A stretch of 64,000 bases of DNA from Mya arenaria (Eukaryota > Mollusca > Bivalvia > Myida > Myidae), in contig NC_069129.1 of the NCBI RefSeq assembly GCF_026914265.1, positions 22,553,945 to 22,617,944 on the forward strand, given 5' to 3'. A program made the position numbers and the translations under genes. Numbering within the stretch: the stretch's first letter is position 1; each line of letters begins with the position of its first letter. Positions 8,601-40,000 of the stretch are shown here, piece after piece. The notes under the pieces are model-generated. The model ran no database searches. It saw nothing but the letters and a program-made list of their open reading frames with translations, and was not told the DNA's origin.

Positions 8601-11600
8601 TTCCTGCTGTTGAACAAAATGTATCAACAATCAACTTCAAAATGTACCTTTTGAGTTTTTTTGTGCAATTCTATACAGAAATGTCCATGGTCATATTGTA
8701 TACATTACAGTGTGGTAAAGGTGGATGACTATACTCGCAGACTCTGGGACATCTATACAACAGTCAGGAAGGAGGGCAGTGCCCAGGTATTGCATAAAAG
8801 TTTAAGTTCTATTACATATTATTCGTCTGTTTTTCTAAGAAAAAAATTATAATGTTGGTTTAACCACAACTTGTAGACTACTAGGATGTCTATAAAACAG
8901 TCAGGTCCAAGAGCAGTGCTCAGGTTGGGCCTTAAAGACCACAACATTTGGTTCGGGATACCCGACCCTTCACGAAATAGTTGTTGTTGTTGTTGAGTTT
9001 ATAAAGGTCTGCCCGCGCCCTATAATGGCTGCATTATGGCTTGACCCCGTCACATCCCCAAGTGTGACTAAAACAGAAGTTTGAAGCCAAAGGGGGAGTT
9101 TTACTCCCATCGGTTGATGGGATATTCGCAAAAGGAGTCATTTTGTATCCAAAGTGCCCAGAAACCGGCGATTCACGAAATAGGCGCCAACCCTACAGTT
9201 TTATAGTCAGCTGGTAAAACAAGATATTTAAAAAATAAAATTAAGTGTGTGTTTTAAAATGCAGTTTAAACCTTTTATGCTTTACACAGAAGATTACTTC
9301 AATACCATTTTGCAATGATGACAATAATGTTCTTGAATTAAACCAATAAAAAAAACCAACCTACCCTTCCTGTTTTTGAAAAGATGAAACTTTAACCAAA
9401 CCATTTATTTTTTTGGCCTAGGCATCAGAAATGTTGCTTTAGTAGATTGTCAACTTGTTGGTTTTAAGAAGCAAATAAGTTTTGGTTTTGTTAAAGCTTA
9501 AATTGGTGTCTTTGTTGTTGTTGTCACTGTTGGTGTCTTGCTAAAATTTTCGTTTTTGCACCGCCAAAATTATTGAAGATTTTCATGAATCTCATGTTCA
9601 CCTTGACAATATGCACATGTGTAGCAAATCCCCTAATATCTCTGGCTAAATATTTGTTAATAATATGTCTCTTGTTGAAATATGAAACTGAACGAGTGTT
9701 GGCATCTAATTGCTATGGTCGTGAAAGCTAGTCGGTTTTTTGGAAGTAAAAAAGTTCAGGCACAAAACATGTAAAACTGTATATATCGAAATGAAGTTTT
9801 GTACATTTCTTGGGTAGATAGATAGATAGATTTATTCGTGCATATATATGTCATTGTAACAAACCAAATATCTCATAAAGTTATAACACAGACTGAATAA
9901 CAAAGTATTAGTGATGATATCTATACTAAAGCACAACATCATTAGAATGCTTTGGATACATACGTGCGTTAACAAAGATTTAATTCAATGTGACAAATAT
10001 ATAACACAGGATAACCCATTAAAGTTATTCAACTTATTTCCAATGGGGTCCTTATGACAAATATAATTATTTGCCAAGATCTCAGTTATAAGCTGTTTAA
10101 ATTAGGTTTACTTATACAAAAATAACATGCATGTACTCTTGACCAGTTAAAGAATGATTAAATGTTTGATATCGAACTTTTACAGTTATAATGCAACCGA
10201 CTGTTAAAACCATATGACACTTTAGCATAATATGACAAAAATCTTTGGACTGATATGCAAGATTAAATGAATAACAATTAATAAAAAAGGAAATCTTCCA
10301 TTTCTGCACATTTCATACCAACAATGAGATGTGATTTCACTTCTTTTTTAAAAGTATTCTTATTTTTCAATTCTTTTAACTTTATTGGAAGACTGTTCCA
10401 GTCCTGGATTGCTTGATAAAAGAAAGTATTTAATATAAAACTGTCAGCCTGTGGCACTTTAAAATTTCCAGCACTATGTCTAATGTTGTAAGAATGTGTG
10501 GATGAGACTAAAGTAAAATGTTCATGTAAGTATGATGGGCATTTGCTATTAAAGATTTTATGTACATGGTTTAGTCGTAGTTGCTTTATCCTATTTTCTA
10601 TATTAAGCCATCCAATATCACTGAAAGCCGAGACTTTCAGGGAAGTTCTACAATCATAGCCATAAATAAATCTGACAACTTTGTTCTGAGTGACCTGTAA
10701 TCTGTTCTTGAATTGTTTACATATACCACTGTACCAAGATGTCGATGCATAGTCAAAATGGCATTGTATTAAGGAGTTACATAACAATCTTCTTAGATTC
10801 ATATCTAAAAAACGATTTTGTCTATATAAAAATTTTAGCCTAGAATTAACTTTACTGACAATATTGTTAACAATAGATGCAGCACTGAGATCATTGTCCA
10901 GTATATTTCCAAGATATTTAACAGATTGTTTAGGTTTTATGATATGGCCATTGCAGTTTACATTAAAGCTATCAACTTTTGTTAGTTTTCTTTTAGACCC
11001 AAATAAAATACATTCTGTTTTTCCAAGATGCAAAGACAGTTTGTTGTCAACTAACCACTTACTACAGTTTTCAAGTTCCTTGCCGAGTACATTACTAATA
11101 ACAGACGGATCTTTGTGTGAGAAAAGGATAGCACTATCATCTGCATATAATATTAATTTACATTTTTTACTTATGCTTATACTCATATCATTGACATAGC
11201 ATAAAAACAGCAACGGTCCAAGTATGCTTCCTTGAGGAACGCCACAAGAGATGTTCATGAATTCAGACGTTGTATTATTTACATTGACAACTTGTTTACG
11301 TCCAGATAAATATGATTGAAACCAATCAATTGAATCCACACCAATTTCTTTTAACTTCTGACATAGAATTTTGTGATCTACGGTATCAAACGCCTTTTGA
11401 AGATCCAGCATAATCATTCCTGTATATAGACCTTTGGAATTTTGTTCTTTTATATGGTCGGTCAAATGAATTAGGCAGGAGTCAGTTGAATAGTTACATC
11501 TAAAACCACTCTGAAGTTCGTATAATAATCCATGTTTAACAAGAAAAGATTCTAGTTGGTTGTATACAACTCTTTCTAAGATTTTTGAAACTATACATAG

Positions 11601-14600
11601 TATGCTTACAGGTCGATAGTTTGAAACATCAGATCTGTTGTTTTTCTTAAACAATGGTTTAACTTTAGCATTTTTGAGTTCAGATGGTACAATGTTACTT
11701 GTGATAGAACTGTTTATCAGAAATGTTACTGGTATCTTTAAAAATGGTGCAGCATCTTTTAAAAATCTTGCAGGAATGTTATCTAACCCTGTGCTTTTTG
11801 AACAATTTAGTTTACATAGTTCCTTGTAAATGTATTCTTCACTAACAGTGTGAAGTTTAAATTTAACAGAGTCAGGATTTCTATCTTTATAAAATCGTTT
11901 AAAACAGTCAGACTCATAGTTAAACAAATTGAAGGGCAAAGGTAGTTTTTTTTACTAAAGTTGAGGCTACAGTAGTAAAAAAAGTATTAAAGTGATTTGC
12001 AATCTTACATGGTTCAAAACAATTTTCATCATCAATGTTCAAAACAATATTTGGAGAAGATTTACTTTTACTACTATATCCAAGATTTTTTAAATCTGAC
12101 CACAGCTTTTTTGGATCATTTTTATTTTCTTCCAGCTTGTTCGACATATATTCCGATTTGGCCTTAATTACTTCTTTCTGAACAAGGTTTCTGTAAAAAC
12201 GATATTTATCTAACATCTCCTTCTGTTTGTATTTTTTGAATTTGAAATAAAAAGCATCTCTTTGACTGATGAGTTCCAGAATGTTAGAATCTAACCATGG
12301 TTCACTTCTTTGTTTTAGTCTGACTTCCTTAACAGGAGCAACAGTGTTCAAAACTGACAGAAATGTTTCTTTAAAAGACAGCCATGAATCTTCTACAGTT
12401 TTTGCAATAAACATGTTTGACCAATCGCAAAGTTTAAGTTTGTGAATAAAATGATCTACATTGTAATGTTTCAAAGACCTTACAACAACATTCTTATGCA
12501 TATTATACGTCCCTTTCTGTGTTTTACGCGTACAAAATACAGGCAAATGATCACTGAGACCTATCGGAAGAGTACCAGACAGAACAATCTTGTTTTGATG
12601 GCTACATAAAATGTGATCTAACACAGAAGAGGAGGACTCTGAGATTCTGGTAGGGTCATTTATGATCTGTTTTAGATTAAAGATATTAAGAACTTGTTCA
12701 AACCTTTTAAAAAGAGCTGATTTCTTTGCAAAAAAACAAATGTTAAAATCACCAAGGATGTACCATTCTGTGTCAGATCTAACCATAGATAAAACATTTT
12801 CAAAAATATCAACAAAATCTGTTTGTTTAGGTGGTCTATAACATGACCCTATTAAAATAGGTTTGGTTTTTGGTAATAAAATATCAGCCCACACTGCTTC
12901 AAGATTGTCATTTTCTAGGTCCCGTCTTTCGGTGAACGCCAGATCTTCATTAACGTATAAGCATACTCCACCACCTTGTCTGTTCCGGTCCTTTCTGATC
13001 ACATTGTATCCTTGAATTTGTATTTCCGAGTCCATAACTGAATTGTCCAGCCAGGTCTCTGAAAACGCTATGGCTGCAAATCTATATTTTGACATTAAAT
13101 GTCTCACTTCGGGCAACTTTGGTAATAGAGATCGTATGTTGAAATGAATAAAATGAAGTCCTTTAAGTTCAAAGCAGTTAAAATTACTACAAGATTCAGC
13201 AAAACTATTGTCATGTAAATCTGGCAGAATTCTATCATGAATATCGTTTAAATCATCACAAAGATAAAAAGGTAATAATTTAAAAGTACATATCCGACAA
13301 GTGAAATAGAAAGATCCATTAGATTTGCATACGTTTGAGTAAAAAGAATCACTTATATAACCTGAGCATCTTATATGTGTCCGGATTTCACAAAAATCAC
13401 AGTTGACAGCTTTACTACGGGCAGTTACACCTTTTCCACAAACCGAACAAGGAAATTTAGGTTGTCTTCCTTTTTTCATATTTGAAAATCCCGAATTATC
13501 AGCATACTTGTCCAATCGTAACAACTCGGCCATCTCCGGCAAGCTTCGAGATAGACCTCGTAAATAGTAGTAAGGATATACGAAAGTGCGATGCGGCTGC
13601 CGGCGATTAACACCGTTTTCAATCCGCGTAAAGAAGGTCCATTGTAACAACAAGGAAATGGATTGTGTTAAATTAAATGTGTTTGTTTAAGAGAAAATAT
13701 TTATTGTAACCTCAAAGAATGTTCGTTTTATGAATATTTAGATGTTTCCTTATAGTTAAAGCACTCTGTTTCCTCAAGAAAAATCGTGAGCACACAGAAA
13801 ATGTACTTGACAGTCATTGAAATGATCATACGGTTCATGGCATGCATGAATCATTACATCGGATTAAATGCACGCATGGACTAAATGTCAACATTTTCTC
13901 AACAGTTATAGGAACACCCTATGAAATGTAAGTTTTAAGTCATAATTTGCCGTGTTATTTCTCACACAATGCCTTGCCATTAAAACAACATTACTATTCT
14001 GTAAAATCATTGATTGCATTATCCAGAGTTTTGAGGGTTGTGGTAGGATGGTTGTGAGCTTGGCACCCAGTCAGCTTTACCAGCTGAAATCTATGCATGC
14101 CTTTACTTCAGCATTATTGGGTTTGGGCTGCAGATTTTTTTTGTGTAAACAGTTGGGGTGGGGTGGGGCGTTGACTATCCACGCAGTAAGCTCAATTGTT
14201 AGAGTACCAGTACAACGTTCATGTGGCTTTGCACCAGACAATTGTAACCACGCCCCCCCCCCCCCAGGTATGGGGAATAGTGGGGACTTTGACTTTCAGT
14301 ACAGCCAACCCCGGCTAAAATCCTCACCCTGCGCGGACGATCCAATGGCAAAATCCCTGCCAAATGCCCCCAACACCCCAGGGACTCTAGGTAAGGTCCA
14401 TTCCCCTCTATATTTTAAGTGAAGATAAAACCACCGCATTCACCCAGCACTGCAGGGCCACCTGATAGGTAAAAACACGGCCTATTTCCCCGGGTAAACC
14501 CCAGTATTCCCCCGGACCTGGAGTGGGGGGGGGTACAATTGACTGGTGCACTAAGTTGACAGAACTTGTCTTAAAATTGTATTTGTTCAAGGCAGATCAT

Positions 14601-17600
14601 GCTTCACTTTACCTCCTAGGCTGTGGATAAAACCCACTCGTTAAAAGTTTCCTTACACATTATATTTGTCTTAATCTATAATTATTAGTCTCAGTATCTT
14701 TGAGTAAATTGGCATTTTTTATGAAAAACAACAACACCAAAAGAGTAACTGATAAGATACTCAACTGATTTATTTTTTTTGTTAATAAAAGCCTTAAACA
14801 AATATTTAGCCAGGTTACTAAGCTTTTCAGCAATGAATATCAGACTTTTTTCAATAATACTTAATCTATTTTGAATAATTAGCCTTTAGATCACTCTACA
14901 CCAAATGACTCTTTTATGTCCAACTCCATAAAATACATACAAGAATAATTACAGTTTGGATCAACATGTCTCTTAATTTTATTTTTAATATTAGTAAAGT
15001 AATAACAGAGCCATCTGTATGCAATCCAATGTAAAATTAATGATAAATTAGGTTTTGCTCCCATTTTTACTTTCATTTCTGTGCCAAGCCCTTTTAAGTG
15101 CATTGAGTCTTTTGGGAGACTTCACAATATTTCTGGCATTTAATCCCCATATATGGCTTTAAGTTGCCATACAAATTTAAGTCTTCATTATAAAAAATAC
15201 TGTATGTTTCCACTTTAACCATAAACACACAATGAGAGGACTATTTAAAGCATTACCATGTGTCAGAATAATAGATCTTTCTTTGCATTTTATTTGTCTA
15301 AATATATTACCGGTCTCTTGAGCAATATCCTTGTGCCTCTTTGAGTACTTGGCTTGACAGTTTGATTTTTAATACATTGTTTTGAATGTTTTATTTGTAC
15401 ACAACAATGATGATGATGATGATGACACTATGCTACGCCAAAACCTCAACACATTTTCTTCAAACAAAAAAGGACAGTCATTCAGAATAACTTTTATTAC
15501 ATCATTTGAGAAAATAAACTCATACAATCAACAAAATAAACATGCATCTGTAAAATCACAAGTAATGTTATGTGTTCGTTAAATTTAACTTAATAACAAA
15601 ATAAGTATTTGTTGCAGTAAGCAATTCGCATCACTTCTAATAAACATTCCAACAGACTGAAAAATAAATCAACACAAATGGAAAAACTGTTTGCAAGTCA
15701 GCTAGTATCTTATTTTATGCCTTATCAGATTGCTATGCAAGCTGGAAGCTTACAAAATCACTCTTAAGTCTGTTGCCTAAGTAGAAACAAGTATGGGCAT
15801 CCTTTTCCTGAGCTCAAGAGAAAGTATCTTGGAGGTCTTGAACTCACAACCTTGAATTTGAGACTTATCCTCTAGACCACTTTCACCTTTTCACATTTTA
15901 AAGAGCCCAGTTTACAATATGGCATTTGCAAGGATGTGCCCTATTAACGGATTTTCTGAAGTCTTAAAAATTGAACTGAACAAAATAGTTCTCCTTTATT
16001 TGGTCTGCCGATGCCATCTGTTTCTGTTTTTGTAGTTATCTTCCCTCCATAATATAGGAAAACAGTTTAAGCGTAGATAAATCCTTTACCATATTACCCT
16101 TTTAAAATATATGTTCGGATTTATTTAATAATCACGGACCAACAGATGGCTTTTATCTTCAACTTCACATCAGTATGTAAGTCATCAAATGTTTGAGATG
16201 ACAAGATGTTCCACTGAACGCTTTGTTTCCATCTTGCACTCATTTTTCCATGGTAGGCGTTGCAGTTGTGTTAGATGATTTCCATGCATTGCAGGTCAAT
16301 CCTCATACAATGGCATTTTTGAGTACATTCGGATTCCAATGCCTGAAATAGAAAACAGAAAATACAACAATAATAGGAATTATATCTTCAGATCAATTAT
16401 TTTAAAAGCCTGTACAACAACAGAAAAGTATTCCCAAAACATTAACTGCAACACCAATTTAAAGCTGCATCCTCACAGTTTTACTGTTCTGACACCTTTT
16501 TTTTATTTTTGTCTTTAAACGAGCCGATTGGCAATTATTGTGCAAATGTAGATATTAGATTGCTGACATAATATCAGATCACAGTCTTTCACAAGTTTGA
16601 AAATTTGGTAAAAATTCCTCCAACTAGTCATATAAGGTCACACATAATATAACAGATTTCAATTGTTTGGAAAATATTTTTTTGCTATTGCTTTAAGCCA
16701 TATAATTAATTATATATGTGTAAATTTAATTTAATTACTCCTTTGGGCTTTTGAAGAATGACCAAGAAGAACTGTCAATCTGTGATAGAGCAGCTTTTAG
16801 TTCTGGACTACTGGTAAATGTTTAAATTCATCTACAATGTTGATATTTTAATACTGTCAATCCTTGTTGGTTAATTGTTCAAACATGCAGGTACTTTTGG
16901 GCTTAAACCAATAGGATACTTGACACTTAAATTATTGTCCGAATTTCGAAAATCGCACAACCATTACCTCATCTGCCTTTTTTTCATTAGAACAAGCTGG
17001 GAATCAAGAGTCAGCTGCACCCCTGGTACCATACTCTTCTCTGAAAATGACAATAAGATTAAAATTTAAATGTCTGCATTTCATTGGCACAGTAAAAATG
17101 TCAGCATTTTTCAATGTTTCTGCATCACCACCACTGGTGGATATCATAGAATTTAGTCTTGAAAGAAATGTGTGCTGGTTCATGCATTCAAAAAATGAAG
17201 ATCTAATTTATTTAGAGAACTATATTAGTGAACAGGGCCGAGGCATTCAGTTGTGCCATTACATTAAGTTGTTCGATACCAACACTCACGGACATATAAA
17301 CCATACATCCTTGGTTAAAAGAATGTAAATTTTAATTATAAAAAAATAAAGTTAATGATATGAAATGTATGAGATAAATACACTGAAAAAGAAAGTCTAA
17401 CCTATTATCGATCAAGGTAAAGTCAGATTCAGACTTATTTGTTATTAAAAAAAATCAAATAGAATATTTGTTTTCTTAATTTTTGCCACTGATCACTGGA
17501 GCTTCAAAATTGTTATTTACTATATTAGAATCTGTCAAATGAAAGAAGACTTTACCCCACCCACTAAGAATTAATGACATTTCCAATTAGTTTCTCATTA

Positions 17601-20600
17601 GGGCTCTTTTAAAACTATTTTTATATTTTATTAAAATACAATAAGTATAAAAATAACACTTACACACAAATAAGTGGTAAAAGTTCGCTCCTCATCCTGT
17701 CTTTGGACTAACATATCTCTTGGTTGTTTGAACATCTTCTTGGTCGGCCATGATGGACTATTTTCTTACGACCCGTATTATATCCGAGGCCATATCTTGA
17801 TACTAGCCGAGGAGTTACGATTGCATACTTGTCCTGTTCAATAGGTCCAGGGTGAGGGTGCACGTCACCACTTAGTAGAAGGAACACGAAAAATATATAT
17901 CTTGGATTAACCTTGGCATAATACTTCTGAAGGTTTTTAATAGTTCTCATGGAGGATACAAAATGGCTGGGTGCCACTTCAACCACTGGGGGCGAAAGGT
18001 ACGAAAGAATTTCAAACGTGAAAATACTTTTTTTTGTAGAGTCAAAACAGTTGACAAGTGTTTTTTCGCCTGGAGAATATTTATGTTTTGTTTTAGGCTG
18101 GTTGGTATCGTTGTATTCCACTGCCTTTAAATATATTTGAAGAAGTATACAGGCGACTAATATTCCACGAAAAGCCACCATCTTGAACGACTAGACTGTT
18201 ATCTCCTGTATTAAAACGAAATTAAATGTCTCACCAGTACGTACAGAAGAAAAAGTGACTCTCCACATATGTTGAAAAAATAATTTACTCTTCCTTTTTA
18301 CTAAGCTTGTAAGTCCCTCTTCGGTTATTTCTACGCCGGGATCCGAACACTATCAAGCGTTTACGTTATATCTCCTGTGGAATTGTTGTTCGATTTTGTT
18401 GAATTTGTCATAAACGGTATGGTTGTTGGCAAAATGATTGTTCACTGTTGATTTCCCATCTTTTAAGTTAAAGTTCCGTCTTTTTCCTCTTTGTAACTCG
18501 ATTTTTTTGCGCCGACGTCAAAGCAAATTTGAAGTTTTCCAAAGTTCACACAAACCATCTTGATGAAAATTGTACCATAAGACGTGAATTTTAATTTGAC
18601 ATCGTTTGATAATATTTTTTTAAATATTGCTTAAGAAATAATGTTAAAATAATTTATTTTTGTTAAAATATATAAGAGCGTCATTTTTTACAACTTGTTA
18701 TGATGACGTCATTTCCGCATTTATGCAACATAGGGTACATTGTGAATAATTTATCACTCATAATCAAGCCTTTTTTTTCTTCATAATTATTATATATATA
18801 CATGTAATATGATTGTAAAATTCCTTTATATCAAGCTAAAACTAAATTGAATGAACAATATCTGATAATTATTTACAGCCGTTGAGTCTGGGATTGATTC
18901 GTAACGACTTTATGTTGGACGTCAAAAGTAGCTGCTGTGAAATTCAGGGCATGCCACAATGTCTTGAGCTTCGCCAGATAGAAATCAACACAATCGCATC
19001 AAGCTTTGCTGGCCTAGCTTCGGGAATCTGGAAGGTACACAGGTATATGATAGAAAATGCTAATTTTTTAGATTTATCTGAAAGGTGTCTGCCATTTTAA
19101 GCTCACATGGCCCCAATTTCTTGACACTTTTTAAGCTTAACAGGCTAAGGTAGCTTATTTCAATTTCAAAAATATATATTTCAATTTGATTTTAATAAAT
19201 GAAAAAAGGTTTATTATAATTTTTAATATCATGAAAATAATTCACATTCAAAGTAAAAAAACCTCTTACTGAATAGCTCAAATTATAGAAAAACAAAATT
19301 AGTGAGCTTAGCTTAATCATGTAAGAAAGAACTTGAAAAGTTTCGTGAAATTTGGGCCTGATTTTAGTACTTTGTTTTGAATATCATAATGACTCTTCTA
19401 GATGGTGTTTAAAAGAGAGGTCCGACTAAATTATGCATAACTTCCATGTTTTTATTGGCATGCCTTTATATTGCAGGTTTACAATGGCACAGGCTGGCAT
19501 AGAATGTAAACCAGAACAGGTAGGCCACTTTTATTTGGATAAAGAAAAAATTATAAATGATTTTATGCTATTCAGTAAAACATCATGATATTTTCACTGC
19601 TGATATTTTCATGGCTGATATTTTCATGGCTGATATATTTACTGCTCTTACACAGCTTGGTTTCTGTTGTTTGACAAAAGAATCACTTTATCAGTGTTGA
19701 CTTTGCCAATAATTTTTTTAAAGGAATACATGAATAAGACTCTATCTTTCTCAAAAAAAATATATAATTTTTTTTTAATGCTATTTAAATCAACACTTTC
19801 CTTGAAATTTAAGTAAGAAAAAACAACAACAGAAAAATTGATGAACAAATCAAAATTAATTCACTGGTGAACATTAAAAATTATATTTTCCTCCACTCAA
19901 AAAAAGTTTGCTTTCAGAGATTACTTGTCAAAATAAATTTGGATCCTACACCAAATTCTGTGAATATTCTCTGTATTTTTTCTTGAATTTTATATTTTTA
20001 TCGCTGCATGAAATTTATTTCCCTTGACACAAATGTCAAGGGAGAAAAATTACATCTAGACTGTCTAAGAGGGCTGGTTTGCCCCTGCAGTTAGCCGCCC
20101 TGGACAGTGTTTTACTGCAATATAGACCTTTCTTTTGGGGTCAATGCAATATCGTACTGAAGCAACATTAAAATTTGTATGGCTTTGACATGTTTTCATT
20201 GAACCTATAAACTGACATTTTACCTGCAGTTCCATATAGAGAACATATTTGTAGAGAAATTAAAAGGGGAAAGTGATTTCTCAATGTGTTATATTGCTTT
20301 CAGATACCGGTAAATGCACCTGCTGAAGGCATTGCGAAGGGTCTGTTGTCAGCATGGGAACACTATGGCAATCAGAGGTTTGTGTTGATCTAATTACAGT
20401 CATATGTTAATACTGGTCCTAGAAGGTTCATCCAAAGAAGGTCATTTTCTCGTGACCTTTTTGTCAGCCAATCAGATGTTTACTTACAACAAGTCTGTAT
20501 ATATGCGATAGAGTTAAATTTAGCCAATATTTCACTGGGATTCCAAATGTGATTTGAATATTTAAAGTAGAACATATGAATATCTGCGATGTAGGTTCGA

Positions 20601-23600
20601 ATCAAACCTTTGCTTCATTTTTATGTAAAAATATATAAAAAAAAAAAACAACATTAAAAGCACACTTTTGCCAGTCAATTTGTGTATGATTTACATTTTT
20701 TTTAACATTGATGTAACCTATTATCCAATTAATTCCAAAAGAACACAGACTATCAGTTGTGCATAATTTCTTATAAGCTGAGCTATAAAAAGCATATTTA
20801 TAGTTTAACAAGTTCCAACGGGTGGGAGTCAGATTTTATCTTAAGTATATTAAAGATTATATTTGTAGTGTTATACCCCCTGAAAAAATCCCAAATAACA
20901 TAAAAATGTTTTGTTCTGCAGGGCTACTGTTCTCGTTGTAGCCTCACTTTTAAACTTGTTTATGTATGTCAAATAATATTTATAGTATGTTGATTTGAAA
21001 TCCAATGGAAAATGCCTCTGATGAGGATATATACCCAAATCATCTTGTCATGTTATTTGCTTATAAAATAATGTCTTTTTCTTTAACATAAAAGGTTTTT
21101 TGCCTTTTTTAGCAACAAATCCATCATTGATTGATAATTTTTTCCAGTGCGTCAGTTTTATTTGTTACAATGGAGGTTGAACGGAATGCCGTGGACCAGT
21201 GGTGGCTGGAGTCCCAACTGTTCTCGCTAAGCCACAATGTGTGTGTGCGATACACAACACTACAGTATGCATACGAACATGCCACGTTGACAGATGATAA
21301 AAGATTATTGCTGTAAGAAGTTACTTATTAAGATTTTGAGTATATTGTAAGTAATGAATTATTTTATTCTATTTTTATTGTTTCTGTAAGTAGTAAAATG
21401 TTGAGTATTTTAAGTCCTGTTACAAAATATAATGTCACAAATAACTCCAAAACTATTCCACCTTAACTTATTTAACTTATTAGGAAATGTTGGTCAGCAT
21501 ATTCCATACATGCCATATCCCCCGGCGGGGGGAAAAATCCCCCAGAATTTCGACCCATCCCAAAACTTGCTTAAGGTTGACAGTGGAAAGCATCAATAAT
21601 ATTATGAGTGTGAAATTCCATGAAGGACCATGATGACTAAGGCCAAAAATTATTGTATTTTGAGTGTATTTCTGTATTTATTCTAATATTATAAATGCAG
21701 TTATTGCGTAAATTTTCATCGCGCAAAAATCCCCTGGTGTTATATCAAAGTCCCCTGGAATTCAGACAAAAATCCCCTGGGAAGCCTCTCAGAAATATGG
21801 CATGTATGATATTCAATTCAATTGTGCACCTTTTGTGACATATCGCATTGTCTAGCAAGAATTATGGCCCTTTAATAAATGAAAAAAATGGTCTTTAAAA
21901 AATGTGTCACATGTAGCTCTAAAGGTATTGCATCTTCACTTATGAAACTTCATAGGAATGTTTGTCTGCTTTGTGAGTGCCAAATCTTTTTTACATTCCA
22001 CTTGGTCCAACAAGAGTTATTGCACCTGACCAAGTAAATATCACAGATCTGCAAGATCTTGTTTGGCATGTAACACCTAAATTATTGTAACTACTATAAT
22101 GAAACTTCCTAGGAACGTTAGTCAGGATGTGCTTTTGTACACCTGCCATATCTTTCATTAATAAATTCTGCAACTCAACATTTAACCATTTCTTTGTCAA
22201 GGCGGTGTCTGGTGTTTTTCATCATACTGTGATAGCTGTAGTGTTTTTTCTCAATGTAGCAACCCTAATTAGTAGAATGCTGATTTAAAATCACGAGTTG
22301 ATATGAATCTGTGGTTTAATTACAGTGATGATGGAAATGAAATTGCTGTGATATACTATCGGGATGGCTATGCACCCACACACTACCATTCAGAAAAGGT
22401 AATTTAACAATTATACGGTAATAATTATAAGCACCCTCTGAATTCCATTTCCATTTTGGTAATTGGAAAGGTTATTCTAAAGAGGAACATTCTGATCAGA
22501 TTTTCTGTAAAGAGCAATGTCTATCTCATGTAGAATTGTATTTGTTATTTAAACGTTTCACAGGTGTGACTTGAACACATCAGAAAATATTTTAACTATC
22601 ACGGTCTATTACCACACAGTCTTCATAAAATGCACCTGACCGAATGCCCGAGGTTTAATGAAAATGTTTTGAGTCTATAGAAATTCAGTTGCTGCAGGCC
22701 CTTTTGGCCTGTACTTTGTTCATTGTACGGTAACAGTTAAAACAACTGAAATAACCTAAAAGTATGAGTTTAATTATTCCAGATGCCCAATTGGTCTGTG
22801 CTCAAAAAATCATTTCACATACACAGAACTCATTTGGTAGACCTCAGTTTATTTCCCAGTCTGGCAGCAATTTTGTGACAATGTTTTATTGAATGTGATG
22901 AGACATGTATATTTTATCCCAAAGTTCAAGCTCAACTTTAGAAAACTTGCTGAGTTGAATATTTTTGTGTTTTGAGCTTGCCTGTTTTTTTAAAGAAAAA
23001 AAGATTGTCAGATTCTCTGTGTCCTTGTCGCGAGCATTGTGCAAAGACCTCAACTTGGCCATAACTCAAAAACCTAATCAAGATATTTGAATGAAACATT
23101 ATGTACACACTCCCACATGTATAGCAAGTTTCATAACTCCGGCTTTAATAATTTTTCTATTTAATAAATAGAGTTGTGCCCCTTTTTGACTGAAAAAACA
23201 ACACCGATGAGTGTTTCACAGTGCTCATGTTACTTTATTATTCAGGAATGGGATGTCAGATTGATGTTTGAGAGATCAAAGGCAATCAAGTGTCCATCCG
23301 TCCACCTACAATTGGCCGGATGCAAGAAGGTGCAACAGGAGTTAGCCACCCCTGGTGCTGTCGAGAGGTTTATTAAAGACAGGGAAGTGTGTAATGGAAT
23401 CAGGAACACATTTGCTGGGCAGTACACATTGGATCAGGTGAGATTTTGGCCCGAATTTCTTGAAACATCTTTTTTTTAAGAACTGATTAAGCTAGGCTCG
23501 CTATTTTTGTTTTGGTATAATTTGTATGTGTATTTACATTCTTAAGTGGTTTTGGACTATGAAATATTATTATCGTTACGATGATCACGATTAACTAATT

Positions 23601-26600
23601 TTCATTTAGTTAAATCAAGATTAAGTAAGAAATTGGATTAATAAAAAAAGCCTCTTAAGCTTTAGAGTAATTGGGGCCTGGTGCTTCTGTGTCTTAATAC
23701 AATTAAACGATTAGTATTTAAAGTGTGCACTGTTGATTGATTGAACAATATTTCAATATACTTAGTAGGTGACCATTTCATCAAGATTCTTGGAAGTGAT
23801 TTTGCATTTTCAACAGTAATATTACACTGTTCTTAGGTTTGAGAGTATTTCTAAGATGCTTGATAATAGCATTATTTTTTGTTTTATAAATCCATGTATC
23901 GGTACTCAGCTTTCCGCCACCAAAGCAAAAAACAAGCCAATAGCAAATACTGTACATTAAATACCCCCACAAAACCATCACCAATATGTAACAAATTTAT
24001 TAAATAAATAGTCAATAATGTTATAAATTACAAAGGTAATTATACTTTTGCTTTGTAAATTTCATACTTATTTACACTGCATATTTTGATTATGTATAGG
24101 GCCCAGAAGGTGACGCAAATGCAAATATGGCCATCAACGATCCCAGTCATTATGTACTCAAGCCTCAGAGAGAGGGAGGAGGTATGTGTTAGGATTAGTT
24201 GGGCTCAAACCTCAGAGGGAGGGAGGAGGTATGTGTTAGGATTAGTTGGGCTCAAACCTCATAGAGAGAGGGAGGAGATATGTGTTAGGATTAGTTGGGC
24301 TCAAGCCTCAGAGAGAGGGAGGAGATATGTGTTAGGATTAGTTGGGCTCAAACCTCAGAGGGAGGGAGGAGGTATGTGTTAGGATTAGTTGGGCTCAAAC
24401 CTCAGAGAGAGGGAGGAGGTATGTGTTAGGATTAGTTGGGCTCAAGCCTCAGAGAGAGGGAGGAGGTATGTGTTAGGATTAGTTGGGCTCAAACCTCAGA
24501 GGGAGGGAGGAGGTATGTGTTAGGATTAGAAGGGCTCAAACCTCATAGAGAGAGGGAGGAGATATGTGTTAGGATTAGTTGGGCTCAAGCCTCAGAGAGA
24601 GGGAGGAGATATGTGTTAGGATTAGTTGGGCTCAAACCTCAGAGGGAGGGAGGAGGTTTGTGTTAGGATTAGTTGGGCTCAAACCTCAGAGGGAGGGAGG
24701 AGGTATGTGTTAGGATTAGAAGGGCTCAAACCTCATAGAGAGAGGGAGGAGATATGTGTTAGGATTAGTTGGGCTCAAGCCTCAGAGAGAGGGAGGAGAT
24801 ATGTGTTAGGATTAGTTGGGCTCAAACCTCAGAGGGAGGGAGGAGGTATGTGTTAGGATTAGTTGGGCTCAAACCTCAGAGGGAGGGAGGAGGTATGTGT
24901 TAGGATTAGTTGGGCTCAAACCTCAGAGAGAGGGAGGAGGTATGTGTTAGGATTAGTTGGGCTCAAACCTCAGAGAGAGGGAGGAGGTATGTGTTAGGAT
25001 TAGTTGGGCTCAAACCTCATAGAGAGAGGGAGGAGATATGTGTTAGGATTAGTGGGGCTCAAACCTCATAGATAGAGGGAGGAGGTATGTTTTAGGATTA
25101 GTGTGGCTCAAACCTCATAGAGAGAGGCAGGAGATATGTGTTAGGATTAGTGGGGCTCAAACCTCAGAGGGAGGGAGGAGGTATGTGTTAGGATTAGTTG
25201 GGTTTAAACCTCAGAGGGAGGAAGAAGGTATGTGTTAGGATTAGTGGGGCTCAAACCTCATAGAGAGAGGGAGGAGATATGTGTAAGCATTAGTTGGGTT
25301 TAAACCTCATAGAGAGAGGGAGGAGATATGTGTTAGGATTAGTGGGACTCAAACCTCAGAGGGAGGGAGTAGATATGTGTTAGGATAAGTGGGGCTCAAA
25401 CCTCATAGAGAGATGGAGGAGATATGTGTTAGGATTAGTGGGGCTCAAACCGCATAGAGAGAGGGAGGAGATATGTGTTAGGATTAGTGGGGCTCAAACC
25501 TTAGAGGGAGGGAGGAGGTATGTGTTAGGATTAGTTGCGCTCAAACCTCAGAGAGAGGGAGGAGGTATGTGTTAGGATTAATGGTGCTCAAACCTCAGAG
25601 AGAGGGAGGAGGTATGTGTTAGGATTAATGGTGCTCAAACCTCAGAGAGAGGGAGGAGGTATGTGTTAGGATTAGTGGTGCTCAAACCCTTGAGCTATTA
25701 AATGAGAAGCAGACACCTGTATAACTAAAAACCAGCACCTTGGAGTTGCGTTTCTACCTGCCTGTAACCATAAATGACTTCATTTCTTACCTGAATCTTG
25801 CAATTCTTAACAATTTTTTTTTTGAGAGTATGTGTTCCAAATAATGCCATATATATATATATGTTTCTTGGTACCGAGTATTCTTTAATAAGCCCCTGAG
25901 TACTTCATATCAAAACATGGGGCTTAGTAATAATGAAGTAGTCAGGGTTCTCAATAAGTTTTAGTTAAACTAGCCCTCATATAAAAGTAACTAGCCAACT
26001 AGGGAGGCCTGGAAAAGTTTCCCGAGTGAGAAATTAATTTCGAGCATTCTTGGTCATTCTAAAGGCATTTTTGAGCACATTTTTAAATTGCAATTACATT
26101 ATAAAAAATTCCTGTAATTGTCACATAATGCACTGGATACAAGTTCTACAGCTCATGTTTAAAACTGACATCAAACTTGTATGAAAGGCACATTGATTAA
26201 TGAAAGTTGGAAAGGCACATTGCCTAATGAGAATTGACAACAAGAAAGGTACAAGATAAAAAATTAAACCAAGTCAAATCTGAACCAGCCTAATTGCCAT
26301 TTGAACTGTCCATTTCAGCCAGCGGCCAGTTCTTGTTGAGAACCCTGTATAATATGTTTGTAAGGAATGTTGGATAAGAAAACTAGGCACATTAGACATA
26401 AGATGGTTGTCAACAATCTAGGACAAGCTTAACCAGGTTTTTCTTCCAACTCATGAGACAACATTTTTTGGTAATATGATATATATATATAATGGTGTAT
26501 ATGTTTTTTGTTGTTGTTTCTTGCAGGGAACAACATCTATGGAGATGAAATAGCAGAAATGCTGCAAAAAATGGGAAGTACAGAGGAAAGGAGCGCTTAC

Positions 26601-29600
26601 ATTCTGATGGAGCGAATATTTCCATGGCCTCAAAACAACCATTTATTGAAGGAGGGAAAACCATGTGACCTTTTGGAGGTCATTAGTGAGCTTGGAATAT
26701 ACGGAGTTTATCTAGGGTAGGTACTTAACACTGACCTAGAATAAATCAATTGATTTCTTCTAGCTTTTGTTTCGAGGAAAAAAAGTCCTCTATGTAGTGT
26801 TATAGCCTTGGCTTAGTTGTCGTAGCTGTGAGCGTCGATGACTTAAAAAACTTAAACCCTGGCCTTAAAGCTGCGCTCTCACAGATTTACCATTTTTACA
26901 AACTTTTTTATTTTTTGTCTTGGAATGAGCAAACTTTTGCGTTAATTATCTGCAAACCAGTGATAAAAGACTGCTGACAAAAGATCAGAACGCAGATTTT
27001 CTTATTTCCATTCGAAAATTGATGTTTTATGGCTAAAAGAGTTACTAACCGTTTAAGAAAAATGCATAAATCATATATTTTTGAACTTAAATATAAAAAT
27101 CTGCGATCTAATGTTTTGTCAGCAGTTCTATATGACTTGTTTACATGCTTTTTTGCATAAATTGGCTCGTGCCAAGACAAAAAATATAAAAGGTAGCAAA
27201 ACGGCCAATCTGTGAGAGTGCAGCTTTAAGGCATAACAAATTATATGTTTGTTTCTGGTTTCATCGCCAAAAATAATGGGTGGATAGATGTCAAAAACAC
27301 TTTATTTTTTATTTTTTAAAAGATAAAAAATCAAACAATTTTTTATGTCAAATTAAAAAAAAAGATCGATATTAAAAGGAAAAATATAACACCCTTTGCC
27401 ATAGACAATGTGCATTAGCAACAAAGACTTTATTTTTGGCTTTTAAAATTTTTGAGTTACCGTATTATATCATGTATAGGACGCTAGCATAGATAGGACG
27501 CAGGCAAAAAAATCGCTGAGAAAACGTGTAAAACCCCTTAATATATAAGATAGGACGCAGCGGAAAAATGTCAAAATCGGAGCCGAAAAATTGAGGTTGG
27601 TTAAGTATTTATAACATATATTGAAGTAAAAAAAACAAACAAAAATTGTATAAAATGCATATTTCGATAAGTGTCTTGTGTACTTCGATAATAATCGTCG
27701 TATTTCAGTAATTAAACGTACACAACAATGATATATGTCTTGACATTTTGAGAACATTCACGCATATTATAAGACTTATACAAATGATGTAATAGACTAG
27801 TTCTGACTGACAGTCAACCGTTGCATCTCCCTACATGCCTTCTGAATGACAGTCAACCGTTGCAACCGTTGCAAAACTGTGTATTGTCAAAACTAATGAT
27901 TGTTTTGATAAGGCTTGTCGCTGCGCGGATTAAAGCATGTCAGCATAATTATTGCGCGTCGGTAATTAGCCTTGCCAGCAGAAGGCACCTCGGGTAAAGT
28001 GCGAACAAACAACAATACAGTATTACCATCGCAATAGTTTGTTCTATTGATGTTTTTCTAATGACAGACAGCGGATGTTTTTCACACCTTCGCACATTTG
28101 AAAAGATTTGATAGTGACAATAATGCTACTTTGCGTTATGCACATTCCTTTATTATTTTTTTAAAACAGTAACGTACAACAAAATGTTTTGTTAAATATC
28201 GAAACATTAAATTCATGAACAATGATTAATTGATAAATAGCTCCTTTCCCGATTTTCCGTTGCCGTTATAACTCAATCCAGTTTAAGTGCTGACTCACAT
28301 AGAGTTTTTATGAGTAGCGTCCCTTTTGTAAAAAAGTAAACACTCGTGTTTGTTTTCAATTTATTTCTCAATAAATCATTTTAAACATTCAATATATTTC
28401 TGCGTGTGTTAACTTGCATGATTTTACCTATGTCAGTTGTTCACTTCGGTGATGCAGTACAGATACTTACTATAACCGCGTTCTTCCCCGGTCCGATATT
28501 TTCAACCTGAAATGGACTTGGAAAAAAACAGATGAAATTCTAATAGCATAGAAAGGACGCAGGCAATTTTTAAGAAGATAATTGGGGGTAAAAAAGTGCG
28601 TCCTATGCATGATATAATACGGTATGCCTCTTTTTGGTGACATTTGCATGGGTGAAAGTTTGAATTTTTCAAAATACTGAAAATAGGGTATTTACAGAGG
28701 AAAATGCCATTTTTACAATACATTATATAGGATAAATATTTTCCAAAATACTGAATTCAGTATCAATACTAAAAACTTTCACCCATGCATTTGTTGGTGA
28801 TTTTCCCACAGCTTTCTTGTTCATTATTCAAAATTATATGCTATCATTTAAAAACAATTTTATCGAGGTAAAGAGATTGGTACACATAAGTACAACACAT
28901 TGTTACATTATGTTAAACATTTAAACGGGCAAAGTGCCAAGTGGACATTTATGAAAAAAAATAATGAGTACTTTATTTCAGTAAAAACTTAAAGTATTTT
29001 TTAAATATCCTAGCTGGCACACCTTGAAATTAATTTTATAAGAAATTTTGTCAGTACATTTTTTAGAACCTTATATTTTAATATGTATATTTTACTCAGA
29101 TGCTTTGAAGAAATTAGTTATTATAAGGTATTGTATTTTACTGTGTTGCTAAATTGCTTTTTTCTGAGCTATCATGGCATTTTGGCATTGAAGAAGTAGA
29201 GAAAAGTAGGGAAAATTAAGGAGTTTGTGTGCAATGTCTTAAATGAAAGGTAAATGAATATACTCCTCAGGCCCTTATTTCTCAAAACTTCTTAAGCTTA
29301 ACAGACTTAAGTAACTTATTTTAATTAGCCAAAATACATATTTGATACATATTTAAATATTGAAAAATGAAAAATGGTTTATTCGGATTGTCATAAAGAT
29401 AATTCCTATCTAAAGTATAAACACTCTTAAAAAGGGTAAATATCACCCAAATAATTGGAAAAAAATAGTGAGCTTAGCTTAATCCTGTCATAATGGACTA
29501 GAAGTTTAGGCCAGATGTCAAATTTTGTATTCTAATTATTTCAGATCAGCTGAGGAAGAGTTGGTTAATGAAGAAGTGGGTCATCTCCTTAGAACTAAGG

Positions 29601-37089: not shown

Positions 37090-40000
37090 TTAATCAAAAC
37101 TACCGAAACTACCAAAACTGCCACAACTTCCAAAACTACTCATAGAGCTCCAACTGCCGCATCGACCCATGCCAAACATTCCGAACGGACTGCCAAAACC
37201 ACCCATGCCACCACCCATCATACGACTGGCTCCATACCCCAGTGCCGCACCACCAATCAGACCTAGAAATAATTGGACATGTTTATATTGTGAAGACCAT
37301 TAAATTGATGACAGTTTATAACAACATAAGTGTCACTTAGCAAACACCAATGCTGGTCTGTTTATAGTCTGTAAAACTAATCACTAATATTAGGATGGTT
37401 CCATCATATGTCAGTGTTTTGTTCCACCGTCATGGTAATGGAGGCGGGGCGCCTTGATAGGGGAAAAATAGTGTTGTTTAGACAAAATGTCAACAATATT
37501 TGTTTTCAAACCTTTTATTTAAAACACCCTGACCCCAGGGTTTTTGACTCAAGTTCCTTGTTACAGGTCTGGGACAGAATTTGCAGGAAAACAATTCAGC
37601 AAAGTTGCAGTTTGTATAAATCTCCTGGGTAAGCCTGCTGCAAACCAGGTGGGGCAAAACATTGATAGATGCATAGCATATCACCGATGTATAGCTATCC
37701 ATGACTCTTCAGAGCTCACCTATCTATCATGTTGTTAGGACCTTAATATTAAATGCATCTTATCATCTGCTTATCTTGTTCCAATCCTGACTTACCTGCA
37801 GCCATTTTGCCTGTATTACTGCCCATAACTCCTCCAAGGCCACCTTTCTTTTTCCTATGGTGATCAGTGGCATACACAACATTTTGTTGTGGGCCCTGGG
37901 CATACCCTCCTGCATAGCCCTGGGGTGGTTGCTGATACCCATAGGCTGCAAAATAAACGTTGCATTTACAACAAAAAGGTGTTTGTATAATAATAATATG
38001 ACCACTGTGCACTGCTATGTCAGTAACATGTGGTATAAAGAACAAATGCATTGTTGATGATTGTGACCACCTGAGCCCCCAAGTATAATCTGTCAAATAC
38101 AACATACCAGAGAAGTTTCATGGTCCCAAGTCAAACTGTTGTTGAGATTTTTTGCAAACAAGTTCAACCCATTATGCAATAAAAAATAGCAATATTATTG
38201 TCCTTACATATATATATACCAATACGTATCACTTCTGTTTCCTTATTATAATACCGGGGTATCAATTATTTCACACATCCCTATTCACTGACTTTACTTA
38301 CGTTGTTGCTGATAACCTCCGTACTGCTGTTGTGGGTAACCCTGTTGCTGTGGATACCCTTGTTGCTGTGGATACGGTTGTTGCTGGGGGTATCCTTGTT
38401 GTTGTGGGTACCCCTGTTGGGGTGGATAAGGGCCGGGCTGACTTGTTGGTGGAGGACCGGGGGCTGTAAATAAACAGATGAGGTAATGAACTAAATCAAT
38501 GAGGTTATACGCCATATAATGTGCTTCTGATTTTTCTGTGGCTCCTGATAAGGTTTGTGCTTAGAGGGAACCTGGTTGTGAATAATAAGGGCTGAGTTGA
38601 CTGAATATAACGATACTTAAAAGCGCACTATATACATGTAATTATCTGTATGAAATAAGTTATTCCAGTAAAAGAGTTAATATTCCAGTCCACAGAGTTT
38701 ATTTGGATGAAAAATATCATAGTTCAGTAAGAAATGTAGCATTTCAGTAAATACAGACATGGAACTATTTTACAAAGGCTATCATTAAAATTCAAAGCTC
38801 TACCATATCCTCCAAAACCTATGGGTTGAGGCATAGGCATGCCTCCAGGAGGTGGCGGGCCTGGCTGGTAGCTGTAAGGAGGTGGTGAATAAACCCCTTG
38901 GGGGTGCTGGGGCTGGATAGGACCCTGAGGCTGAGGCGGTGAGGGGCCAGACTGGTTGCTCTGGGGTCGGGAAGGGAGCTGGAAAATAAAGGGGCCATAA
39001 GTTAGTACTAATTTCTTTTGCTCAACTGTGATAGCTTACAGAAGCAGGTTCAAGTCTGCTTCCCTGTGAGACACCAGTACAAGCGTCAGTTTTAAGGGGC
39101 CATGAGAATATACCTCTACTGGGGATCAAACCCACAACCTCTTGGGCGAGAGGCGGATACCACTATCACTTGACTTTAGATTTTCTGTTAATGGCCCTCT
39201 TGGTGGAGAGTGATTGACATAGTTTGAGAAAACAACTCAACTACATTAGTGTGAGAATGAATTACTAACTTCCTATTCATTTGAAAACTTCATGTATATG
39301 CGAAAAGTTGGAATGATGTAAATACAATTATAAACATGAGGAATGCATTGCTTTAGACATGACTGCAAAGGGCCTTTGTGCATACCATACATGCATTCAT
39401 AAACAGATCAAGTTTTGATGACATTCAGGACATAATTTTACATTATTCATTTAATCATCTTTAAAGGGACTGTACACCAGATTGGCACAAAAAAAACGTC
39501 TTTTTCTGTAACCAATCTCAGGACAAGTATTTAATAAAATGGTTTACTCTTTGATATCATAATTGTAAAAAAATACCAAAATGTAAAAAAAAAATCGAGT
39601 CGAAAACCGGGTTCGAACCGGGGTCGCCAAAATTGCAGCCCAGTGTTGAACCACTGTGCTACGAAGGAATACTCTCAATGGTTGGAATATTTAAGCTATA
39701 TACCTAACTTGGTAATATCACGTGATAACATCGACTAGCCAATCTTTTTTAATGGAAAAATACCAAAAAACTATGTGGTACTTCAGTTAGTAAGTTTCAA
39801 TGCATTGTACACATCCATACCAAGTTTATGTCAGTTTTCGACAATTTTCTTTTTTTCTCTCGCTATTTCATCATACGGAGTACAGCCCCTTTAAAGCATA
39901 CATTGTAAACACTTATCAACAACCAATTTTCTATAAATATTAAAAGTAATACTTACAGTAGAAATGATTGCTGACATCCACTCACTGAAAAAATACAAGA

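Follow-up and report, generated by a model that had tools for sequence, protein, structure and literature searches.

How is the correct splice donor chosen when the end of a coding exon, donor included, has been amplified into a long tandem array? The question is raised by a gene in the window, the 64,000-nucleotide stretch analysed here (C8:22553945-22617944), which carries a glutathione synthetase (GSS) gene on its plus strand from about 8.1 to 29.7 kb. Pieces of a human GSS sequence, used as query, gave ordered matches running from 8127 to 29656 of the window. A protein joined from three window exons (9-11) matched the Pfam family GSH_synth_ATP at 3.4e-50, and its alignment with residues 280-433 of human GSS (2HGS) had an E value of 1.1e-46. 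The presence of both the GSH_synth_ATP domain and the glycine-rich loop KPQREGGGNN identified the product as a eukaryotic glutathione synthetase. The identity of this loop (G-loop) is reported to approach 100% across 23 eukaryotic glutathione synthetases; in human GSS, Lys364 is expected to bind the phosphates of ATP (PMC2845819).

The exons and the other features of the locus are listed in Table 1, with exons numbered as in the preliminary description of this DNA. The 3' end of exon 10 reads CTC AAG CCT CAG AGA GAG GGA GGA G, and exon 11, whose start at 26527 is CAG/GGAACAAC (a slash marks a junction), opens with GG AAC AAC and is preceded by TTTCTTGCAG. Joined, the two exons encode LKPQREGG/G/NN, as in human. 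Since exon 10 ends in G and exon 11 begins with GG, the intron interrupts the third glycine codon of KPQREGGGNN in phase 1. Homology and frame agree on both sides of this junction, and the first unit of the array is for that reason taken to hold the real donor. The earlier proposal that a minisatellite had amplified an exon end of GSS together with its donor was confirmed.

Table 1. Positions of exons, donor and repeat units of the window GSS gene (window coordinates).
Feature	Position	Strand	Basis or remark
Exon 9, EWDVRLMFERSKAIKC...TLDQ	23246..23437	+	3' end phase 0, CAG/GTGAGA; human GSS homology
Exon 10, 82 nt, GPEGDANANMAINDPSHYVLKPQREGG plus 1 base, ends phase 1	24100..24181	+	Acceptor TATAG/GG; human GSS homology
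Authentic donor GT, GAG/GTATGT	24182..24183	+	Homology and reading frame either side of the junction
Unit 1: last 25 nt of exon 10 and first 22 nt of intron, with authentic donor	24157..24203	+	Exon/intron boundary; identical in second gene copy
Units 2-32: 18 GT decoys and 13 AT units	24204..25680	+	Unit alignment
Units 1-18, homogeneous exon-proximal part; 190-bp blocks (units 2-5, 8-11, 12-15)	24157..25008	+	Pairwise differences; 190-bp period
Units 19-32, exon-distal part; several rare variants in same order as second copy	25009..25680	+	Unit-order alignment
Partial unit CTCAAACCC, intron-side near-copy of exon CTCAAGCC	25681..25689	+	Same end in both arrays; putative role as duplication start
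Host intron, 2345 nt (second copy: 3403 nt)	24182..26526	+	Exon ends
Exon 11, mapped part, GG NN IYGDE...	26527..26714	+	Human GSS homology

The array consists of 32 full tandem units (24157-25680) followed by a partial unit of nine bases at 25681-25689; TRF called it at 24157-25688, with 32.2 copies and a score of 2401. The repeat crosses the exon-intron boundary, as 24157-24181 of unit 1 is exon and 24182-24203 is intron. Twenty-two units are 47 bp long and ten are 49 bp. At the donor dinucleotide 19 units have GT and 13 have AT, in agreement with the GT and AT counts given previously. Several units of each gene copy thus hold a consensus-like donor (GT in 19/32 here and in 26/52 in the second copy, described below). 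The donor nine-mer GAG/GTATGT (GAGGTATGT) is exact in 17 of the 32 units, unit 1 among these, so that 16 of the 18 GT decoys are identical to the true donor in this nine-mer. The two deviant decoys carry GAGGTTTGT (copy 11) and AAGGTATGT (copy 23), and copy 7 equals copy 1 across all 47 bases. No Rfam match was obtained over the whole window at gathering thresholds, and the 24-base core of the unit had no exact match among viral contigs.

A second, colinear GSS copy was found in the same assembly, 2.03 Mb from the window copy. Its array (C8:20552081-20554561, same strand) has 52 units, 26 with GT and 26 with AT. The nine-mer GAGGTATGT occurs in 25 of them and 24 of its 25 GT decoys match the true donor in it exactly. 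Unit 1 is the same in both arrays, and exon 10 of the second copy is intact with one amino-acid replacement (N to K). Probing the genome (1.216 Gb, 18 contigs) with the unit and exon 10 revealed no third array at the sensitivity of the search tool. The surrounding 50 kb is colinear with the window at about 1.3% mismatches (505 in 38,999 aligned bases, counting only pieces of at least 300 bases and more than 95% identity), and three probes indicated that the duplicated block spans 400 kb or more. Ten coding stretches (1272 nt), hand-cut from tblastn hits, with one certainly and perhaps two more overrunning an exon edge, aligned without gaps and differed by 4 synonymous and 4 other changes; among the replacements, that of S to F (stretch 8709-8819) may fall outside the exon. 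Tiny as these counts are, and roughly cut as the stretches are, no strong constraint is visible in them. The second copy is probably a retained haplotype or a very recent duplicate.

At the places probed, C8:20306313-20745748 and C8:22353500-22754500 have the same orientation and 97-100% identity. A probe taken from between the two copies (L028) hit three sites, C8:19955607, 21553500 and 21934165, at 99-100% identity. Where probed, this part of C8 thus occurs two or three times, as retained haplotypes or very recent large duplications. When loci were paired at a constant offset of 2.02 Mb, none of the best 40 rows was a collinear pair; such pairs were found by the probe searches. The exon 11 acceptor of the second copy carries 45 bp that separate its pyrimidine tract from its GCAG (L011:5460-5504, that is C8:20555460-20555504), and the 3' splice site of this copy consequently differs from that of the window.

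The consequences of using a decoy were examined by translating exon 10 on into each decoy and then into exon 11. With every one of the 18 window decoys, translation first meets a stop at codon 31 of exon 10 (GGG MC, then stop), a shared TAG three codons beyond the glycine triad that is reached by every downstream GT unit. It had been argued that other copies would usually shift the frame and that read-through would meet TAG at once. Six of the 18 decoys keep the reading phase, yet TAG halts those too, and none of the 18 would yield an in-frame protein product. In the second copy, too, this stop lies in frame downstream of donor 1. The true donor closes an exon of 82 nt; the window decoys would give exons of 129, 272, 319 nt and upward, and decoys yielding exons of at most 300 nt number two in the window, against four (units 2-5) in the second copy. 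These data support the view that decoy splicing would break or truncate the enzyme.

The explanation that we favour, and consider probable with some reserve, is that this is a minisatellite at an exon-intron boundary, that donor 1 makes most of the mRNA, and that the array is nearly neutral and not a regulator. A 47-bp segment made up of 25 exon 10 nucleotides and 22 intronic ones, flanked by short imperfect repeats, CTCAAGCC in the exon and CTCAAACC in the intron, would have been duplicated and then re-duplicated. One lineage of units would later have acquired 2 bp and the G-to-A change at the donor, and turnover of the array would be continuing with the exon's own unit taking part. As the first donor to be transcribed, and one that closes an exon of normal size, donor 1 would serve most mRNA; RNA spliced at a decoy, having a truncated frame, would be destroyed. 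The array would then be a nearly neutral by-product that places a small, variable burden on splicing. What we observed is the anatomy itself, two arrays (32 and 52 units) that have some units in common and others private to each, a greater likeness among the units on the exon side of both, and a paralogue free of any array.

The sequences at the two ends of the array are consistent with this origin. CTCAAGCC stands in the exon at 24157 and CTCAAACCC in the intron after the last unit of both arrays. We infer an unrepeated ancestor in which one unit lay between two short near-identical repeats, and duplication between these would give intronic units with AAA; most intronic units do have AAA rather than AAG, as this route predicts. 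In addition, a diverged GSS paralogue is present on C15 in two places about 615 kb apart (C15:48004373-48017592 and 48618864-48632139) that are 99.9% identical over the 1.8 kb compared. Its coding match stops at the same codon and phase, with GAG/GTGCTC, and the intron position looks shared, as judged from where that match ends. The 1.8 kb searched contained no array, its sole repeat (L046) having a 9-bp unit and 2.1 copies. Because the paralogue has the same boundary without an array, the intron looks old and the array appears to belong to the C8 gene, although the C15 paralogue could instead have lost one.

The array might instead act as a splicing rheostat, in which a sizeable share of transcripts is spliced at decoys and lost, and the number and GT or AT state of the first few units sets the GSS output of each allele. 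We calculated predicted U1 pairing, using an unmodified U1 end, as -8.8 kcal/mol for the common GT form, -8.0 for GTTTGT and -2.1 for AT. As most decoys have the nine-mer of the true donor (16/18 in the window and 24/25 in the second copy), they have the same predicted pairing. The arrays differ by 20 units in length and also in the number of their short-exon GT decoys (2 versus 4). Alternative donors of the human IFI6 minisatellite are used in mRNA, according to the part of the source drawn on here (PMC4526556). When two donors compete, SRSF1 and enhancers lying between the two promote use of the downstream, intron-proximal site, as described in the portion of PMC5585400 that we cite. Since every unit is purine-rich, the decoys might be used more than is assumed above. 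The winning donor is not predictable from rules, which is what makes the locus useful. However, selection ought to act against losing much of an essential enzyme, and yet five successive GT units (2-6) stand beside the exon in the second copy; we regard the rheostat as unlikely. A stronger form is somewhat less likely again. The array would here be a heritable, fast-changing rheostat: turnover on the exon side would alter the live GT decoys within about 300 nt, AT and AGG variants would silence single decoys, GSS mRNA would differ between alleles, and the exon codons would be repeatedly exposed to conversion by units with dead donors.

Turnover also forms part of the favoured reading of a nearly neutral array. 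The units of the two arrays were aligned in order. The scoring, with variant-rarity weights and affine gaps, was devised after an alignment with flat gap costs had proved uninformative (score 4.5, shuffles up to 7.5). The score obtained was 48.7, whereas 200 shuffles averaged 0.2 and never exceeded 16.0. Window units 19 and 21-26 have their partners in second-array units 7, 9-13 and 15, and the variants at columns 22, 25, 36 and 39 include ones confined to a single such pair. Window units 27, 28, 29 and 32 pair with second-array units 49-52. On the exon side of the shared block the window has 18 private units and the second copy has 6; beyond that block, towards the far end, 33 second-copy units (16-48) are without partners, compared with none in the window. 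Since private units fall in both places, the length (32 versus 52 units in two gene copies of one assembly, be they alleles or paralogues) has changed both beside the exon and further in. Turnover is therefore not confined to the exon side, the largest length difference being second-array units 16-48.

The units beside the exon are nevertheless the most alike. With cuts picked after inspection of the units in both arrays, mean pairwise differences were 2.5 for window units 1-18 versus 5.7 for units 19-32, and 2.0 for second-array units 1-6 versus 5.6 for units 7-52, so that recent homogenisation is strongest at the exon. AAG (Lys, column 6) is found in window units 1, 4, 7, 10 and 14 (5/32) and, in the second array, in unit 1 only (1/52, with three units gapped there). 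The exon's own AAG unit was probably copied back into window units 4, 7, 10 and 14, an argument from parsimony and not proof. Within the exon-derived part of the 47-bp units, a tally that excludes 49-bp units and gapped units showed AAG/AAA and AGA/AGG to be the commonest two variants, both silent in the exon frame. This would fit exon alleles feeding the array, two sites being no test. Our analyses suggest that the turnover of this minisatellite also involves coding bases of a catalytic loop that is nearly invariant.

The G-to-A change at so many donors could, it had been suggested, reflect either selection against decoys or the simple spread of one variant. AT units are indeed numerous (13/32 and 26/52), and the change would weaken U1 pairing by the difference calculated above (-8.8 to -2.1 kcal/mol). 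However, when both arrays were pooled, AT was found in 30/34 units of the 49-bp class compared with 9/50 of the 47-bp class, and since AT is tied to the 49-bp class it would represent few events. The spread of one variant mostly accounts for the pattern: AT appears chiefly to mark one unit lineage, with a few exchanges or recurrences. Variation was counted by column over 82 units, unit 1 of each array being excluded. There were 7 variant states in the 9 columns of the donor nine-mer versus 48 in the other 38 columns, and 5 versus 20 singletons. Over these units of both arrays, variation was not enriched in the donor nine-mer, and no sign of selection against decoys was seen in it. GT is also retained next to the exon, in 3/5 of units 2-6 in the window and in 5/5 in the second array. 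Together, these data make selection a very improbable cause of the AT units.

Slightly less credible still is the idea that RNA structure sets the true donor apart, for example by GAGGU:ACCUC pairing or by a two-tier G-quadruplex in AGG units. The preliminary description had offered RNA structure as one way in which the first site might be marked. In ordinary pairing the first donor was among the less open ones in both copies, ranking 14, 18 and 18 of 19 in predicted openness under three settings in the window, and 14, 21 and 22 of 26 donors in the second copy. Growing transcripts were modelled at 8 lengths, and each time the first donor was predicted to be less open than units 2 and 5. Structural marking of donor 1 was consequently rejected, as predicted accessibility does not favour it at equilibrium or during transcript growth. 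Four GG tracts, the donor's included, occur in 30/43 GT decoys of the two arrays and in neither exon copy. The tracts are, however, missing from 13 GT decoys, and their occurrence in 0/39 AT units is partly by construction, as AT removes the last GG. A Fisher test of G-tract units against GT was discarded on this account and because the units are related, which leaves no association test valid. The predicted G-quadruplex version of the idea is weak.

Least probable of all is an assembly artefact, on which the array, or else its length, would be false, or the second copy no more than a faulty assembly of the same DNA: haplotypes may stand side by side in the assembly, because the C8 region is repeated at 97-100% identity at the places probed, yet the arrays differ in length and by many private variants while sharing rare variants in order, the pattern of real alleles or paralogues, and the second, differently built 52-unit array in the same assembly makes an artefact less likely.

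Turri, Cuin and Porter (1995, NAR 23:1854) reportedly described the minisatellite of human IFI6 (G1P3, 6-16), whose unit is said to be 12 bp and in frame and whose downstream donors are said to give in-frame protein isoforms. The GSS unit, in contrast, is 47 or 49 bp and every GSS decoy leads to TAG; moreover, the GSS array is without GT in 13/32 and 26/52 units, and its exon encodes the catalytic loop of a housekeeping enzyme. The likeness lies in a minisatellite at an exon-intron boundary whose units supply multiple splice donors: in the part of the IFI6 account cited here, several donors arise and two downstream units are used, giving isoforms (PMC4526556). Variable internal tandem repeats at exon-intron boundaries are also described in primate segmental duplications, with a mean unit of 30 bp, about 4 units on average and 27 intron modifications at such boundaries, in the portion of that study consulted (PMC2812944). 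Those minisatellites likewise vary between recent paralogues. As far as the same portion goes, they differ from the GSS arrays in size (about 4 units versus 32 and 52) and in effect, with novel introns and alternative transcripts there and an old intron with decoy donors here. Intron gain by tandem duplication, as outlined in part of PMC4974935, is similar in that a duplication can copy a splice signal; in GSS, however, there is no new intron, the intron position being common to the C15 paralogue. Other intronic repeats are treated in the parts used of PMC5628181 and PMC3223203. Literature joining "glutathione synthetase" and "minisatellite" was off-topic as judged from titles and the beginnings of abstracts, and we claim no wider absence. 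The kind of structure is thus already known from IFI6 and the primate boundary repeats; its size, the non-productive decoys and the position in a catalytic loop differ.

The locus offers a natural experiment in donor choice, in which 16 decoys in the window, or 24 in the second copy, share the nine-mer of the true site and lie downstream of it, mostly 47 or 49 bp apart, behind one stop codon and in two array forms within one genome. It could show whether position alone decides among many identical donors.

Several other features of the region were observed. Window positions 9817-18732 (about 8.9 kb) are missing from the second copy, and retroelement-like frames lie on the minus strand at 10278-13686. 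A tandem repeat of about 139 bp at window 49820-50196 matches a longer stretch in the second copy (C8:20577944-20579106), so that a second minisatellite of the region also seems variable. PQQGYPQQ-like repeats abound in a minus-strand open frame at window 38294-38560, which may be a tandem repeat within the coding sequence of another gene.
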